From Halothiobacillaceae bacterium (GTDB lineage: Bacteria; Pseudomonadota; Gammaproteobacteria; Halothiobacillales; Halothiobacillaceae): DNA of 64,000 nt. The notes under the pieces are model-generated. The model saw nothing but the letters and a program-made list of their open reading frames with translations. It had not been told where the DNA came from and made no database searches. Below are positions 767-17,800 of the stretch, one piece after another. Location: positions 49,068-113,067 of the forward strand of contig SDAY01000001.1 of assembly GCA_006212015.1 (NCBI GenBank), in the 5' to 3' direction. A program made the translations under genes and the position numbers. Positions within the stretch are counted from its first letter, which is position 1, and the number at the start of each line of letters is the position of its first letter.

Positions 767-1405
767 ATGCCAACCCACCTGCGCGTGCGCGACCTTGGCC
801 TGCAACCCTACGCGGACAGCTTCGAGGCCATGCGCGCCTTCACCGCCGCGCGCACGCCATCGACGCCTGACGAGCTCTGGCTGGTCGAACACCCCCCAAT
901 CTTCACCCAGGGCCTGAACGGCCAGCCCGAGCATCTGCTCATGCCCGGCGACATCCCCGTGGTCCGGACCGACCGGGGCGGGCAGGTGACCTACCACGGC
1001 CCCGGCCAGCTGGTGGGCTATCTGCTCTTCGATCTGGGCCGCGCCAGACTGGGCGTGCGGGATACGGTCGAGCATCTGGAGCAGGCGGTCATCGGGCTGC
1101 TGGCCGGGCTGGGCATCGAGGCGGCCTCGAAGCGCGACGCCCCCGGCGTGTACGTGGACGGGGCGAAGATCGCCTCGCTTGGCCTCAAGGTTCGCGGCGG
1201 GCGCTGCTATCATGGCCTCGCCCTGAACGTGGCGATGGACCTGGCCCCCTTCTCGCGCATCAACCCCTGCGGCTACGCCGGCCTGCGCATGTGCCAGGTG
1301 AGCGACTTCGCGCCCGGCATGAGCGTCGAGGCGCTCAAGCCGCGTCTCGCCCATCATCTGGCCGAACGTTTGAGGCAGGATGCCTCAACACGAACAACGA
1401 CGTAA
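767..1405 (+). CDS. lipB: Octanoyltransferase LipB
   Basis: [46 protein letters not shown] motifs. Confidence 0.95.
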
Positions 1406-1524
1406 GTCCTTGATTCGTGGAGCTCACCGCAAATTCACTTCGCGGTGAGCTGGGCTGAATAAAGCCAAGGATGGCTTTATTTCGGCATTTACCTTGGGCT
1501 CGAACCCGAATTTATGGACCGCGA

Positions 1525-3253: not shown

Positions 3254-4084
3254 ATGCCCGTCACCCCGCCCGACGCCAGCCTCGACCCCATGCGGGCCCT
3301 GCTGGAGCTGATGGCCGCCCTGCGCCATCCCGAGCAAGGCTGCCCGTGGGACGTGAAGCAAAGCTTCGCCACCATCGCGCCCTACACCCTGGAGGAGGCC
3401 TACGAGGTCCTGGAGGCCATCGCCCGGCAGGACATGGGCGAGCTGCGCGAGGAGCTGGGCGACCTGCTGTTCCAGGTGGTCTACCACGCCCGCATGGCCG
3501 AGGAGGCCGGGCATTTCGGCTTCGATGACGTGGCGCGAGGGATCGTCGACAAGATGGTGCGCCGCCATCCGCATGTGTTCGGCGAGGTCCGTCATGCCGA
3601 CGAAGCGGGCGTGAAGGCGGCCTGGGAGGCGCAGAAGGCCGCCGAGCGTGCCGCCAAGGGCGGGCCGGAACAGCCCCCGAGCGCGCTGGATGGCGTGGCC
3701 CTGGCCCTGCCGGCGTTGACGCGCGCAGTCAAGCTGCAGAAACGCGCGGCGCGGCAGGGTTTCGACTGGCCCGACGCCGATGCCGTGTTCCCGAAGATCG
3801 ACGAGGAACTGGCCGAGTTGCGCGAAGGCATCGCGGCGGGCGATCGGGCCAATGTCTTCGAGGAGATCGGCGATCTGCTGTTCGCCATCACCAACCTTGC
3901 CCGCAAGCTCGGCATGGACCCCGAGGCGGCCCTGCGCGGCTGCAATGACAAGTTCATCCGTCGCTATCAGGGCATGGAGACCGTCGCCGAAGGGCGGAAA
4001 GTGCGTCTGGCCGATCTGACGCTGGACGAGCAGGAGGCGATCTACCGCGAGGTCAAGGCAAGGCTTGCCACGGGCGGCGCCTGA
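3254..4084 (+). CDS. mazG: Nucleoside triphosphate pyrophosphohydrolase MazG
   Basis: LRHPEQGCPWDVKQSFATIAPYTLEEAYEVLEAI and EEIGDLLFAITNLARKLGMDPE; ATG 3254. Confidence 0.95.
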   Translation: MPVTPPDASLDPMRALLELMAALRHPEQGCPWDVKQSFATIAPYTLEEAYEVLEAIARQDMGELREELGDLLFQVVYHARMAEEAGHFGFDDVARGIVDKMVRRHPHVFGEVRHADEAGVKAAWEAQKAAERAAKGGPEQPPSALDGVALALPALTRAVKLQKRAARQGFDWPDADAVFPKIDEELAELREGIAAGDRANVFEEIGDLLFAITNLARKLGMDPEAALRGCNDKFIRRYQGMETVAEGRKVRLADLTLDEQEAIYREVKARLATGGA

Positions 4085-4132
4085 AGGCTTGTGAATCAAT
4101 CGGCTGCGTCCCGATTTCCGCCCCGATCACGG

Positions 4133-4300
4133 CCTTGGCAGGCTGCTGAAATACTCATTTCAGCAGCCTGCCAAGGCGGGACATGGATGTCCCGCACGAA
4201 AGTCGATCACGTCAGTGATTGACTTTCGAATACCACGTCCGGGCGTGTACCGAACGTGGTATGGCTGAAAAACTCATGGATGAGGTTTTTCAGCATCCTG
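4133..4300 (+). repeat. Five-hairpin train, copy A (H1-H2-H3-H4-H5)
   Basis: Consecutive inverted repeats: 4133-4176 (20-bp perfect stem, 4-nt loop), 4176-4195, 4197-4228, 4230-4262, 4264-4294; near-identical in reverse complement to 17605-17768. Confidence 0.9.
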
Positions 4301-4368
4301 TTGGGTGTGCTTGCAACGATGGCCGCACAAGTCTCTCCATGCGAATTCACTCGCACACCAAGCGTCAT

Positions 4369-4386
4369 GTGCGAATGAATTCGCAC
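4369..4386. repeat. GTGCGAATGAATTCGCAC palindromic module
   Basis: Same 18-mer (reverse orientation) at 14172-14189 and 17783-17800; degenerate relatives at 4341-4356 and 14114-14130. Confidence 0.8.
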
Positions 4387-4649
4387 CTGCATGCCGTATC
4401 CATCGACCAAGGGCGAACCGCTTGCAACGGCATCCCCCCGCCGGCCCCGGCGCCGCATGGATGGCTGAAGGTCAACGGAACGGTTGACTTCCCCGCGTGC
4501 ATGGCTTTGCATGGCCTTCGGCGCCGATTGTTTTTCAGGCAGGCCGCTCCTTGGGGTGTGAGGAACGAGCCCCGGCGAGGCGGGTTGTGAAGGCATCGTC
4601 TTCCCTCGGGGTCTTCAATTTCATGCCAATTCAATGGAGCGCAAGGAGC

Positions 4650-6392: not shown

Positions 6393-6516
6393 ACGGGCTC
6401 AGCGAGGCCTCCGGAAAATTCGGGGGCGTGAACACGGGTTGAAATCCATCAGGGTGTGGTTTATGATCCTCCACGCCGATGGAGTGAATCGCATGATTCG
6501 CCATGAATCATCGGCT

Positions 6517-6602
6517 GAATCTTGGCAAAACCGCGCGAAAGCCGGTGACGCAAAGCCACGGGTCGTCTCATGAGGGCATGAACGATGGCCGGGTTGCCGC
6601 TG
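6517..6602 (+). ncRNA. GEMM-I (c-di-GMP) riboswitch aptamer upstream of second GH5 gene
   Basis: TTGGCAAAACCGCGCGAAAGCCGGTGACGCAAAGCCACGGGTC...GATGGCCGGGTTGCCG: conserved GGCAAA, GNRA loop CGAAAG, GACGCAAAGCC and 3' GGGTTGCCG blocks in canonical order. Confidence 0.9.
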
Positions 6603-6672
6603 CAGGGGGACAGTGCCCCTTGGCGACGCGACGTCATGCGGTTCGTGCGTGTGTGAAACGAGGGCACAGCGC

Positions 6673-8400
6673 ATGAAACGAATTTTCCAATCACCCATGT
6701 TCAGCGCGCCTCGGGCTGGAACGCTGGCCTTGGGCATCGTTCTGGCCCTGGGCGGCGCCTCCGCCGCGCAAGCCTACCAGGTCCAGTCAGGCAAGATCCA
6801 CGACGACGCGGGCCAGCGCATCGCCCTGCGCGGAGTGAACTGGTTCGGCTTCGAGACAGCGAGCCATGCCCCGCATGGCCTGTGGGCGCGCAATGCTGAC
6901 GACATGATCGCGCAGATGAAGTCCCTGGGCGTCAACGCCGTGCGCCTGCCCGTGGCCCCGGCCACGCTTCATGGCGCTTCCGTGACCAGCGTCAGCCTTG
7001 CCCTGAACCCGCAATTCGCCGGCATGAACGGCCTGCAGGTGCTCGACTACATCGTTCACGCACTCGATCAGGCAGGGATCTACGTGCTGCTCGATCACCA
7101 CCGCCCGGATGACGAGGCCATCTCCGCGTTGTGGTACACCGCAAGCTACAGCGAAAAGCAGTGGCTGGACGACCTGAAGCTCATGGCGGCGCGCTACAAG
7201 GGCGTTCCGCATGTGCTGGGCATCGACCTCAAGAACGAGCCCCATGGCCCCGCGACCTGGGGGGTGGGCAATCCCTCGACGGACTGGAACCTCGCGGCCG
7301 AGCGCGCCGCGCAGGCCGTGCTTTCGGTCAATGACAGGCTGGTGGTCTTCGTGGGCGGCATTGAGGAGCAGGCGACCTGCTCCGGCGCCCATGCGCATGG
7401 CTGGGGCGGCAACCTGGAGCCGCTGCGCTGCATGCCGTTGAGCATCCCGCAGAACAAGCTGGTGTTCGCGCCGCATTTCTACGGCCCGGATATCTACATG
7501 TACTCGTATTTCAGCGACCCCGCGTTCCCCGCCAACATGCCGGCGATCTGGCAGGCCAATTTCGGTTTCGCGCGCGACATGGGCCATGCGGTGATGCCGA
7601 CGGAGTTCGGCAGTCGCTACGGTCATGGCGGCCTTGCGCTCGATAAGGTGTGGTTCGATGCTGCGATCGACTGGATGGTCGGGAAGGATCTGCGCGACGG
7701 CTTCTTTTGGTCCTGGAACCCCAATAGCTCCGATACGGGAGGTTTGCTGAAGGATGACTGGACCAACGTATGGACGGACAAACTGGCCAGGCTGCAGACG
7801 CTTTGGGGCGTCGCGCCGTCCACGCCGCCGGTCGTGCCGCCGCCCGAGTCCCCTGCCGCAAGCGGCGATGCGTTCTCGATCAGCCGCGTCGTGGATTCGG
7901 ACTGGGGTGCGGGCTACTGCGTGAGCTACAGCGTGCTCAACGTCAGCGACCATGCCGCCCAGTGGGCCACGAGCTTCGGTTTCCAGGATAAGCTGGATCG
8001 GGCCTGGAACGCGGTCGTCACGGTTGACGGCGCCAGCATCAAGGCGAAAGGGGAGAGCTGGAACAGCAGCCTGCAGCCTGGCCAGAAGGCGTCGTTCGGC
8101 TATTGCGCGACGCGCCCCGCGCCGTCGAGCGCAGGCGCCACGGCGACGCAGTTCCAGACCCAGCTCACCAGCCTGGGCGACTGGGGCAAGGGTTATTGCA
8201 CGGGTGTGCGCGTCACCAACACCTCCAAGACTGTGGCGGCCTGGAGTGTCACCTTGCCGCTGGAAGGGCGCATCACGAGCGCCTGGAGCGCGAATGTCAC
8301 CGCCGTGGGCGGCGGCAAGGCCAAGGCTTCGGGGCTGAAGTGGAACGCCTACCTGAACCCCGGGGCCTCCACGTCATTCGGGTTCTGCGCGAGCCGCTGA
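6673..8400 (+). CDS. Secreted endoglucanase GH5 with two CBM2-like domains (paralogue 2)
   Basis: MKRIFQSPMFSAPRAG...; same architecture and catalytic motifs as paralogue 1; Pro-rich linker STPPVVPPPESP. Confidence 0.9.
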   Translation: MKRIFQSPMFSAPRAGTLALGIVLALGGASAAQAYQVQSGKIHDDAGQRIALRGVNWFGFETASHAPHGLWARNADDMIAQMKSLGVNAVRLPVAPATLHGASVTSVSLALNPQFAGMNGLQVLDYIVHALDQAGIYVLLDHHRPDDEAISALWYTASYSEKQWLDDLKLMAARYKGVPHVLGIDLKNEPHGPATWGVGNPSTDWNLAAERAAQAVLSVNDRLVVFVGGIEEQATCSGAHAHGWGGNLEPLRCMPLSIPQNKLVFAPHFYGPDIYMYSYFSDPAFPANMPAIWQANFGFARDMGHAVMPTEFGSRYGHGGLALDKVWFDAAIDWMVGKDLRDGFFWSWNPNSSDTGGLLKDDWTNVWTDKLARLQTLWGVAPSTPPVVPPPESPAASGDAFSISRVVDSDWGAGYCVSYSVLNVSDHAAQWATSFGFQDKLDRAWNAVVTVDGASIKAKGESWNSSLQPGQKASFGYCATRPAPSSAGATATQFQTQLTSLGDWGKGYCTGVRVTNTSKTVAAWSVTLPLEGRITSAWSANVTAVGGGKAKASGLKWNAYLNPGASTSFGFCASR

Positions 8401-15128: not shown

Positions 15129-17545
15129 TGCCGGGATGGATCGGCCGGCGCGTGCGCGGCATGCGCGGTCGTCTGCTCCTGGCCGCCATCCTCGTCGAGG
15201 CGCTGATGCTCACCCTGCTGGTGGGCAACAGCCTGCGCCTGCTGCAGGGCAGCCTGGACGAGCAGGCGCGCCTGCAGGCAAGCCAGCTCGCGCCCGTGCT
15301 GAACGCGGCGCTGGTCGCACCCATGGCGCAGTATGATTACGCGACCGTGCAGGCCATCCTCGAAGAGGTCGTGGCCGTGCGGGGCATCGACTACCTCGCC
15401 GTGCAGGACGCCTCCGGCAAGCTGATCGGCATCAGCGGCTGGGAGCGAGGCCGGCCCCTGCCGCCCGCCGACGAGACGCTGTCATCCTCCCTCAATGACG
15501 ACATCCTGCCCCGCCACGATGTCATTCGCCCCATTGCGCTTGCCGGGCAGACGCTCGGCACCATGCATTACGGGCTGGGCCTCGGCCATATCCTGATGGC
15601 GCGGGATCGGCAGCTCACCCAGGGCGTGGCCATCGCGCTCGGCGAGATCCTGCTCTCCGTCGCCCTGCTGGCCCTCATCGGTCTCCTGATGACGCGCCAT
15701 TTCGCCGAGCTGATCCGGGTCAGCGGCGAGGTGGCCCGGGGCAACTTCGCCTTCGCCCCCCTCGAGGAGGGGGATCACGACATCGGCCGATTGGGGCGGG
15801 CCTTCAACGCCATGGCGCACGCGGTGGATGAGCGCATCCGTGAGCTCGCGGGCCTGCGCGATGCGCTGCAGCGGGAGCGCGATCTCGCCCAGGTGACGCT
15901 GGCCTCCATCGGCGATGGCGTGGTCACCACCGACGCCGAAGGGCGCGTCACCTTCCTCAATGCGATGGCGGAGAAGCTCACCGGCTGGACGCAGGAGGAG
16001 GCAGCGGGGCAGCCGGTCACCGAGGTCGTCGCGCTGTCCGAGGAAGAGGGCGGCCGGTTACCGTCCCATCCCGTCCTTGAGTGCCTGCGGTCCGGCCATG
16101 GCGTCTCGCTCCAAGCGGATGTCGTGCTGGAGTCGCGCGATGGCCGGCGCACCCCGGTGGAGGACAAGGTCGCGCCCATCCTCGACCGCGGGGGTGTGGG
16201 GGTCGGCGCCGTCATGGTGTTTGCCGATGTCAGCGCCACGCGCGAGATCAGCCGCCTGATGGCCTGGCAGGCCAGTCATGACAGCCTGACCCGGCTGGTC
16301 AATCGAAACAGCTTCGAGCAGCACCTGAATCGCCTGCTCGACGAACCGGTCAAGGCCGGCCGCGAGCATGCCCTGCTCTACCTCGACCTGGACCAGTTCA
16401 AGATCGTCAACGACCTGTGCGGGCACACGGCGGGGGACCGGTTGCTGGTGCAGGTGACCTTCCTGATGCACGAGCAGATGCGCAAGAGTGACACCCTGGC
16501 GCGACTGGGCGGCGACGAGTTCGGCGTGCTGCTGCAGGATTGTCCCGAGGAGTGTGCGCTTCGGATCGCCGACGCCCTGCGGGTGGTCGTGCGCGACTTC
16601 CGCTTCGCGTGGGGCGACAAGGTCTTCGAGATCGGCGTCTCCATCGGCCTGGTGATGATCGGCCCCGAGGGGCGCAGCGCGGCCGAGCTGCTAAGCGCCG
16701 CCGATATGGCCTGCTACGCGGCCAAGGAGCAGGGGCGCGACCGCGTCCATGTCTATCGCGGCGAGGATGTGGAAACCATGTCCCGTCAGGCCGAGATGCA
16801 CGTCGCCGCGCGTCTGCGCGAGGCCCTGCGGGAGGACCGCTTCGTGCTGTACGCGCAGGAGATCCGTGCCCTGCGGGGGCACGGCCCGCACTACGAGGTG
16901 CTGGTGCGCATGCTGGACGAGCAGGGGAAGCCGCTCGCGCCCGCCCTGTTCATTCCCGCCGCCGAGCGCTACGGCCTGATGCCGCAGGTCGACCGCTGGG
17001 TGGTCCGCCATGCCCTGCGGCAGGCTGCCGCCTCCTGCGACGCGCACGGCCTCACCCTGGCCATCAATCTGTCGGGGCTGTCCCTGCTCGATCCGGCGAT
17101 GCCGGGCTACATCCGCGAGCAGCTGGCCGAGAGCGGCATGCGGCCCGAGTGCGTCTGCTTCGAGATCACCGAGACCGCCGCCATCGCCCACCTGGGCAAG
17201 GGCGTCGAGTTCATGCGCGAGTTCCGGGCGCTGGGCTGCCGTTTCTCGCTGGACGACTTCGGCAGCGGCATGGCCTCGTTCGGCTACCTCAAGGCCCTGC
17301 CGGTCGATTACCTGAAGATCGACGGCGCCTTCGTGCGTGACATCCTGACCGACCCCATCGACCGCGCCTTCGTCGAGTCCATCCATCACATCGGCAAGGT
17401 GATGGGCAAGATGACGATTGCCGAGTTTGCCGAAAACCAGGCCATCATTGACGAACTTGAGCGCATCGGCATCGACTATGTGCAGGGCTATGGCGTCGCC
17501 CGCCCGCGCCCGCTGGCCGAGGTGCTGGGCGGCCTGTCGGCCTGA
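15128..17545 (+). CDS. Membrane HAMP-PAS-GGDEF-EAL c-di-GMP signalling protein
   Basis: Two TM segments, HAMP, PAS (LASIGDGVVTTDAEGRVTFLNAMAEKLTGW), LARLGGDEFGVLL with upstream RKSD I-site, EVLVR, FSLDDFGSGMASFGYLKALPVDYLKIDG, VQGYGVARP. Confidence 0.95.
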   Translation: MPGWIGRRVRGMRGRLLLAAILVEALMLTLLVGNSLRLLQGSLDEQARLQASQLAPVLNAALVAPMAQYDYATVQAILEEVVAVRGIDYLAVQDASGKLIGISGWERGRPLPPADETLSSSLNDDILPRHDVIRPIALAGQTLGTMHYGLGLGHILMARDRQLTQGVAIALGEILLSVALLALIGLLMTRHFAELIRVSGEVARGNFAFAPLEEGDHDIGRLGRAFNAMAHAVDERIRELAGLRDALQRERDLAQVTLASIGDGVVTTDAEGRVTFLNAMAEKLTGWTQEEAAGQPVTEVVALSEEEGGRLPSHPVLECLRSGHGVSLQADVVLESRDGRRTPVEDKVAPILDRGGVGVGAVMVFADVSATREISRLMAWQASHDSLTRLVNRNSFEQHLNRLLDEPVKAGREHALLYLDLDQFKIVNDLCGHTAGDRLLVQVTFLMHEQMRKSDTLARLGGDEFGVLLQDCPEECALRIADALRVVVRDFRFAWGDKVFEIGVSIGLVMIGPEGRSAAELLSAADMACYAAKEQGRDRVHVYRGEDVETMSRQAEMHVAARLREALREDRFVLYAQEIRALRGHGPHYEVLVRMLDEQGKPLAPALFIPAAERYGLMPQVDRWVVRHALRQAAASCDAHGLTLAINLSGLSLLDPAMPGYIREQLAESGMRPECVCFEITETAAIAHLGKGVEFMREFRALGCRFSLDDFGSGMASFGYLKALPVDYLKIDGAFVRDILTDPIDRAFVESIHHIGKVMGKMTIAEFAENQAIIDELERIGIDYVQGYGVARPRPLAEVLGGLSA

Positions 17546-17604
17546 GGGCCTGTGAAGAAATCGACTGCGCCCCGATCACTGCCTTGGGTGGTACTCGCTG
17601 CTAC

Positions 17605-17768
17605 CAGGATGCTGAAAAACCTCATTCATGAGTTTTTCAGCCATACCACGTCCGGTACACGCCCGGACTTGGTATGCGAAAATCAATCACTTACGTGATT
17701 GATTTTCGTGCGGGACATCCATGTCCCGCCTTAGCAGGCTGCTGAAATAAGTATTTCAGCAGCCTGCT
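17605..17768 (-). repeat. Five-hairpin train, copy B (inverted relative to copy A)
   Basis: H5' 17611-17641, H4' 17643-17675, H3' 17677-17708, H2' 17710-17729, H1' 17733-17768; reverse complement of 4139-4300 with few mismatches. Confidence 0.9.
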
Positions 17769-17782
17769 ACGCTCCCTTGCAG

Positions 17783-17800
17783 GTGCGAATTCATTCGCAC
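17783..17800. repeat. GTGCGAATTCATTCGCAC palindromic module
   Basis: Identical 18-mer to 14172-14189. Confidence 0.8.

Follow-up and report, generated by a model that had tools for sequence, protein, structure and literature searches.

An apparent IS5-type MITE with a conserved five-hairpin, RNA-like body and two putative CsrA-type sites

IS5-family MITEs are short, multi-copy elements that lack a conserved gene, are flanked by 4-bp target duplications and have terminal repeats in common with IS5-type insertion sequences (IS). Other hairpin-rich bacterial MITEs include QMITE2 of Coxiella, with duplications of 7-9 bp (PMC5896051), and the R0 and R2 repeats of Pseudomonas, which follow a simple stem-and-core plan of 89-110 bp and whose ends are shared by existing IS (PMC2718517). 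REP, BIME and REPIN sequences, which are associated with RAYT, are intergenic palindromes often located near gene 3' ends, and the sponge RNAs CsrB, RsmX, RsmY and RsmZ are chains of hairpins with ANGGA in their loops. The element described here resembles each of these systems in the respects just named, but its duplication is 4 bp long, unlike that of QMITE2, and its plan is not the simple one of R0 and R2. In contrast to IS5-family MITEs in general, its body combines five stems whose conservation, seen as covariation, extends through much of the phylum, and several terminal-repeat classes occur on this one body plan. The element differs from REP-type sequences in its five fixed stems and DDE-type partner, and its 4-bp duplication fails the REP/REPIN criterion of insertion without target duplication. 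Unlike the sponge RNAs, it carries GGA in only two of five loops, is repeated and mobile, shows no promoter or terminator at the copy analyzed and has no Rfam match.

The window, a stretch of 64,000 nucleotides, belongs to a Halothiobacillaceae genome of 2.39 Mb in 227 contigs. An earlier note, based on the sequence alone, had claimed five back-to-back inverted repeats at 4133-4300 and the same five in reversed order and orientation at 17605-17768. Both claims held, with all five repeats found in place and the second copy delimited to 17605-17766. Copy 1 begins with CAGG and ends with CCTG (162 nt), and copy 2 is 94% identical over the core, lies in reverse orientation and forms the same five hairpins. 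The single-strand fold of the hairpin train reaches -106.8 kcal/mol, compared with -50.3 +/- 4.3 for shuffles (z = -13). The features, including scores from a covariance model (CM) built from 31 copies, are as follows.

1370..1490, plus strand: third copy, diverged and lacking stem 1, with four hairpins (CM match of 41.4 bits to 1343-1497)
4132-4177: extended form of stem 1, whose inner foot pairs with the left host flank
4132-4152/4157-4177: stem 1 arms, from the inverted-repeat search
4135..4138, plus strand: left target duplication of copy 1, TTGG, 4 bp (empty site CCTTGGgtgtgct in L148)
4139..4300, plus strand: five-hairpin element copy 1, CAGG...CCTG (CM match 199.7 bits)
4139..4170, plus strand: stem 1, the left terminal repeat in hairpin form
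4176..4195, plus strand: stem 2, arms 4176-4184/4187-4195
4185-4187: GGA of the stem 2 loop cATGGATg, CsrA-type
4197..4228, plus strand: stem 3, arms 4197-4210/4215-4228, loop GTCA in copy 1
4230..4262, plus strand: stem 4, arms 4230-4242/4250-4262, loop around GCGTGTA
4264..4294, plus strand: stem 5, holding the right terminal repeat
4278-4280: GGA of the stem 5 loop cATGGATg
4301..4304, plus strand: right target duplication of copy 1, TTGG
17601..17604, plus strand: target duplication of copy 2, CTAC (GTAG in element orientation)
17605..17766, minus strand: five-hairpin element copy 2 (CM match 202.6 bits; loop 5 reads GAA)
17767..17770, plus strand: target duplication of copy 2, other side, CTAC

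The third copy, which sits between lipB-like and lipA-like genes, folds into four hairpins, two with GGA loops and one with a CGTAAG loop. Having retained both GGA loops and the CGTAAG loop, it apparently belongs to another subfamily in the same genome.

The element is not confined to these copies: the host genome has about 14 of near-full length, plus several that are truncated, and the full copies present five stems in the same order throughout. The distance from CAGG to CCTG remains 160-163 nt even in relatives that are merely 72% identical, and terminal inverted repeats (CAGGMTGCTGAAA) occur at both element ends. Of 31 copies, 14 have the same 4 nt on their left and right sides, where 3.5 would be expected; none of 20,000 shuffles gave as many, and the 4-bp duplications follow a YTAR-like consensus (YTAR). 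Copy 1 is inserted inside another dispersed repeat, where the sequence reads CCTTGG-[element]-TTGGgtgtgct, and a paralogue of that repeat, L148, retains the empty site. In four congeners, the element is missing after mazG. Whole-hairpin internal deletions are visible in L018, L020, and L049, and the old copies L037 and L047 have lost their pairing. Indels and compensatory changes run through the element, and there is no conserved reading frame, although coding was judged only informally. Taken as a whole, the element is very likely a mobile IS5-type MITE.

Some neighboring repeats were also observed. The repeat that served as the insertion target of copy 1, GGCTTGTGAATCAATCGACTGCGCCCCGATCAC...CTTGGGTGTGCTCGC, occurs at 4085-4137 and 17545-17600 and also in L146-L150, L152, and L153, and its ends resemble the GAGCTTGTGA-type five-stem elements of genome G287. 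A short palindrome, GTGCGAATGAATTCGCAC, lies near element copies at 4340-4385 and 17783-17800 and is also present in L149. In genome G041 (L059), two full five-stem elements in the same orientation, about 1 kb apart, flank a tRNA gene (features at 1501-1672, 2077-2149 and 2564-2735).

A search of viral contigs for the terminal sequence of the element recovered L134, a complete IS with the element's ends (CAGGGTGTTGAAAAA/CAGGCTGTTGAAGAA) and CTAG on both sides, whose transposase matches NCBIfam IS5_4 (266 bits) and Pfam DUF772 and DDE_Tnp_1. Genome G066 holds both a five-hairpin element (L062) and an IS (L141) with ends CAGGCTGTTGAAAAA/CAGGTTGTTGA, a CTAG duplication and a transposase 52% identical to that of L134, and G287 has an IS with ends GGGAAACGCTGA together with elements ending in GGGCAGCGCTGA/GGAGACGCTGA. 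Two IS5-type IS with matching ends are thus located in genomes that also carry the element. Another end class, GGAACCTCTGA, is found on the same body plan in L071, L074, L082, and L086, and CGCTGA or CACTGA end types appear in second hits in L045 and L002 and also in L201; IS5-type IS bearing such alternative ends are present in G328 and G287. The single DDE_Tnp_1 gene of the host genome lacks the element's ends, no IS of its own with those ends was detected among DDE_Tnp_1 hits, and DDE_Tnp_1 is absent from four carrier genomes, indicating that the transposase is often missing today. The existence of IS5-type IS with matching ends, two of them in carrier genomes, suggests that an IS5-type DDE transposase probably moves the element in trans, although mobilization itself is inferred from shared ends and duplications.

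The order of the five stems holds well outside the host genus: the CM found full-length matches in 52 of the 369 class genomes sampled (E <= 0.001) and in 44 of the 299 sampled from the phylum (E <= 1e-6), other classes among them. The E-values are only approximate, but matches that score 60-140 bits across the full model can hardly be doubted. Among 61 diverse copies, two-sided compensatory change was identified at 56 of 58 base pairs, and 95.5% of pair cells are standard, compared with 33-47% (at most 46.5%) for slid partner columns. These counts come from an alignment fitted to the structure; in an unfitted alignment of 31 near copies, two-sided changes affect 26 of 58 pairs and all five stems. 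Compensatory change maintains the five stems in a large portion of the phylum, with part of the arm pairing attributable to template switching (see below).

The loops show a constraint of another kind. Of 119 elements, 108 have GGA in loop 2, 111 in loop 5 and 102 in both, whereas loops 1, 3, and 4 contain it in merely 1, 1, and 9. ANGGA averages 2.0 occurrences per element on the GGA-loop strand and 0.25 on the opposite strand. Loop 3 is GNRA-like in 60 of the 119 elements, compared with 3 on the opposite strand, and takes the GYAA form in many relatives. GGA persists in loops 2 and 5 although loops 1 and 4 and every stem vary, which likely reflects RNA-level constraint on one strand, although there are no RNA data. 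The two loops carry the CANGGANG hexaloop form selected by CsrA/RsmA, and their sequence follows the same pattern as the CsrA SELEX consensus RUACARGGAUGU, usually a six-base loop closed by AC/GU (PMC7652899). However, the SELEX ligands mostly have stems of four or fewer pairs, compared with 8-14 bp in the element, and the measurements of CsrA bridging cover spacings of 10-63 nt (PMC7652899), whereas the two GGA motifs lie 89-98 nt apart in linear sequence, a distance partly folded away.

The host genome contains csrA. In the phylum sample, csrA is found in 42 of 44 carriers versus 138 of 255 non-carriers, a difference confounded by phylogeny, and the two carriers without it are genomes only 69-74% complete. 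The class sample gave no clear excess (46 of 52 carriers versus 266 of 317 non-carriers), and no csrA-element association independent of phylogeny was obtained; co-occurrence is accordingly not counted as proof. No sigma-70-like promoter was detected in 4050-4450 around the window copy, no intrinsic terminator or T-run was seen there, and no Rfam family matched at the gathering score, with only spurious single-hairpin matches below threshold. Whether CsrA is the ligand of loops 2 and 5 is accordingly a question on which we lean neither way, as binding is inferred from a sequence pattern without binding or RNA data.

Stem 1 records a mutational process. Its inner foot, a variable segment of 4-8 nt, matches the left host flank. 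Of its 66 departures from the group consensus, 39 equal the sequence of that flank, against 15.2 expected (none of 5000 shuffles). The matches reach 7-8 nt in L001, L010, L011, L036, and L053, and include indels in L010 and L053. L167 carries an unusual foot like that of L053 at a non-matching site, indicating that the copied bases are inherited. The simplest reading, and a likely one, is template switching inside the extruded hairpin after insertion, in which case some of the covariation in stem 1, and perhaps beyond it, has a mutational origin. Such switching accounts for some of the pairing between arms, but it cannot explain why GGA is kept in loops of one strand only. The element provides a clean natural case of hairpin arm pairing arising from copied host DNA and a caution against taking covariation alone as proof of RNA function.

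All 16 host copies examined, with gene positions taken from heuristic gene calls, sit in the gaps between likely genes or at gene ends, with 3' ends the more frequent neighbors, and no orientation preference was apparent among them by eye. In L005, L009, L010, and L019, the insertion coincides exactly with the stop codon of a 250-450-codon frame. Such insertions are expected because YTAR targets are rich at TAA and TAG in a GC-rich genome, and the 4-bp duplication restores the stop codon. Separately, a c-di-GMP-I riboswitch (62 bits) at 6514-6601 of the window lies directly upstream of the second member of a tandem pair of cellulase-like genes (6613-8400).

Three other explanations were weighed. 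The likeliest of them is that of an ordinary IS5-type MITE with no RNA role, whose hairpins persist because intrastrand template switching keeps the inverted arms alike and because the family goes back to one hairpin-rich ancestor. It is supported by the direct evidence that host DNA is copied into hairpin arms, and by the L053-like foot of L167, which inheritance of copied bases predicts. However, palindrome correction would keep arms alike and not the loop sequence of one strand, and GGA persists in loops 2 and 5 despite turnover of loops 1 and 4 and all stems. Moreover, private stem changes in the host genome are mostly pair-breaking while shared ones are mostly pairing, although this evidence is weak (p = 0.04 overall). 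We consider this explanation unlikely.

Even less support exists for the remaining two. The element might be useful to the host at 3' ends, with REP-like hairpins terminating transcription or protecting mRNA ends, as suggested by the position of 16 of 16 host copies outside likely genes, more of them beside 3' ends, and by the high stability of the hairpins. However, placement at stop codons follows from the YTAR target, the old copies L037 and L047 lose pairing, and the GGA loops are left unexplained; the terminator version was rejected, as the window copy has no U-tract. At the DNA level, single-stranded or cruciform hairpins could be substrates of an HUH transposase (REP/RAYT or IS200/IS605-like), with the foot of stem 1 as a target-pairing guide. 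In IS200/IS605 elements, guide and cleavage site do pair, and the foot does pair with the left flank. Nevertheless, the two flanks match each other also in copies whose foot is different (L003, L007, L008, and L172), the mark of a true duplication, and a guide role was rejected on this ground; in addition, many lineages lack any target-like foot, and the transposases of the IS that share its ends are of the DDE kind. Both explanations appear very improbable.

Our preferred reading, to which we assign a probability of about 0.68, is that of an IS5-type MITE with a conserved five-hairpin, RNA-like body and two CsrA-type sites, transcription and CsrA binding being inferred. The element multiplies as a unit, with YTAR-like 4-bp duplications and the ends of IS5-type IS, which can provide a DDE transposase in trans, and the selected product would be an RNA of one strand. 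Loops 2 and 5 may offer their two GGA motifs as a site pair for a CsrA/RsmA dimer, with stems 3 and 4 bringing the motifs closer. These sites would enter transcripts mostly by read-through, since the preference for YTAR targets brings many insertions to stop codons and to the 3' ends of genes, and the likely effect would be titration of CsrA or placement of a host transcript under CsrA control. Beyond the mobile-element facts, what is new is the one-stranded retention of GGA in loops 2 and 5 against a background of changing stems.

The earlier note had offered three options. The non-autonomous mobile element is supported by target duplications, the empty site, its presence in some species and absence from others, and IS5-type partners that share its ends, the duplication and partner IS pointing to a DDE transposase where a linked RAYT or transposase had been suggested for checking. 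The structured RNA is also supported, as far as conservation goes, through covariation in all stems and one-stranded GGA loops, and nothing in evidence points to a gyrase or chromatin site. The family, which that note could not name, matches no Rfam family. No description of the element emerged from literature searched by concept and by terminal-repeat letters, with most subscription papers outside the search, and plasmid and phage collections gave no match (distant blastn).

A bolder reading, which we put forward tentatively as it seems to us clearly more likely wrong than right, is that the element is a bacterial counterpart of SINEs. In this joint scenario, a CsrA-binding RNA cassette gained IS5-type ends, exchanged them several times for the ends of other IS5-type transposases, and spread CsrA/RsmA sites through proteobacterial genomes, titrating CsrA or controlling neighboring transcripts. 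If the RNA interpretation is true, a repeat widespread in several proteobacterial lineages would be a mobile RNA and not passive DNA, and transposition would be linked to CsrA, a regulator of biofilm, motility, and carbon storage.
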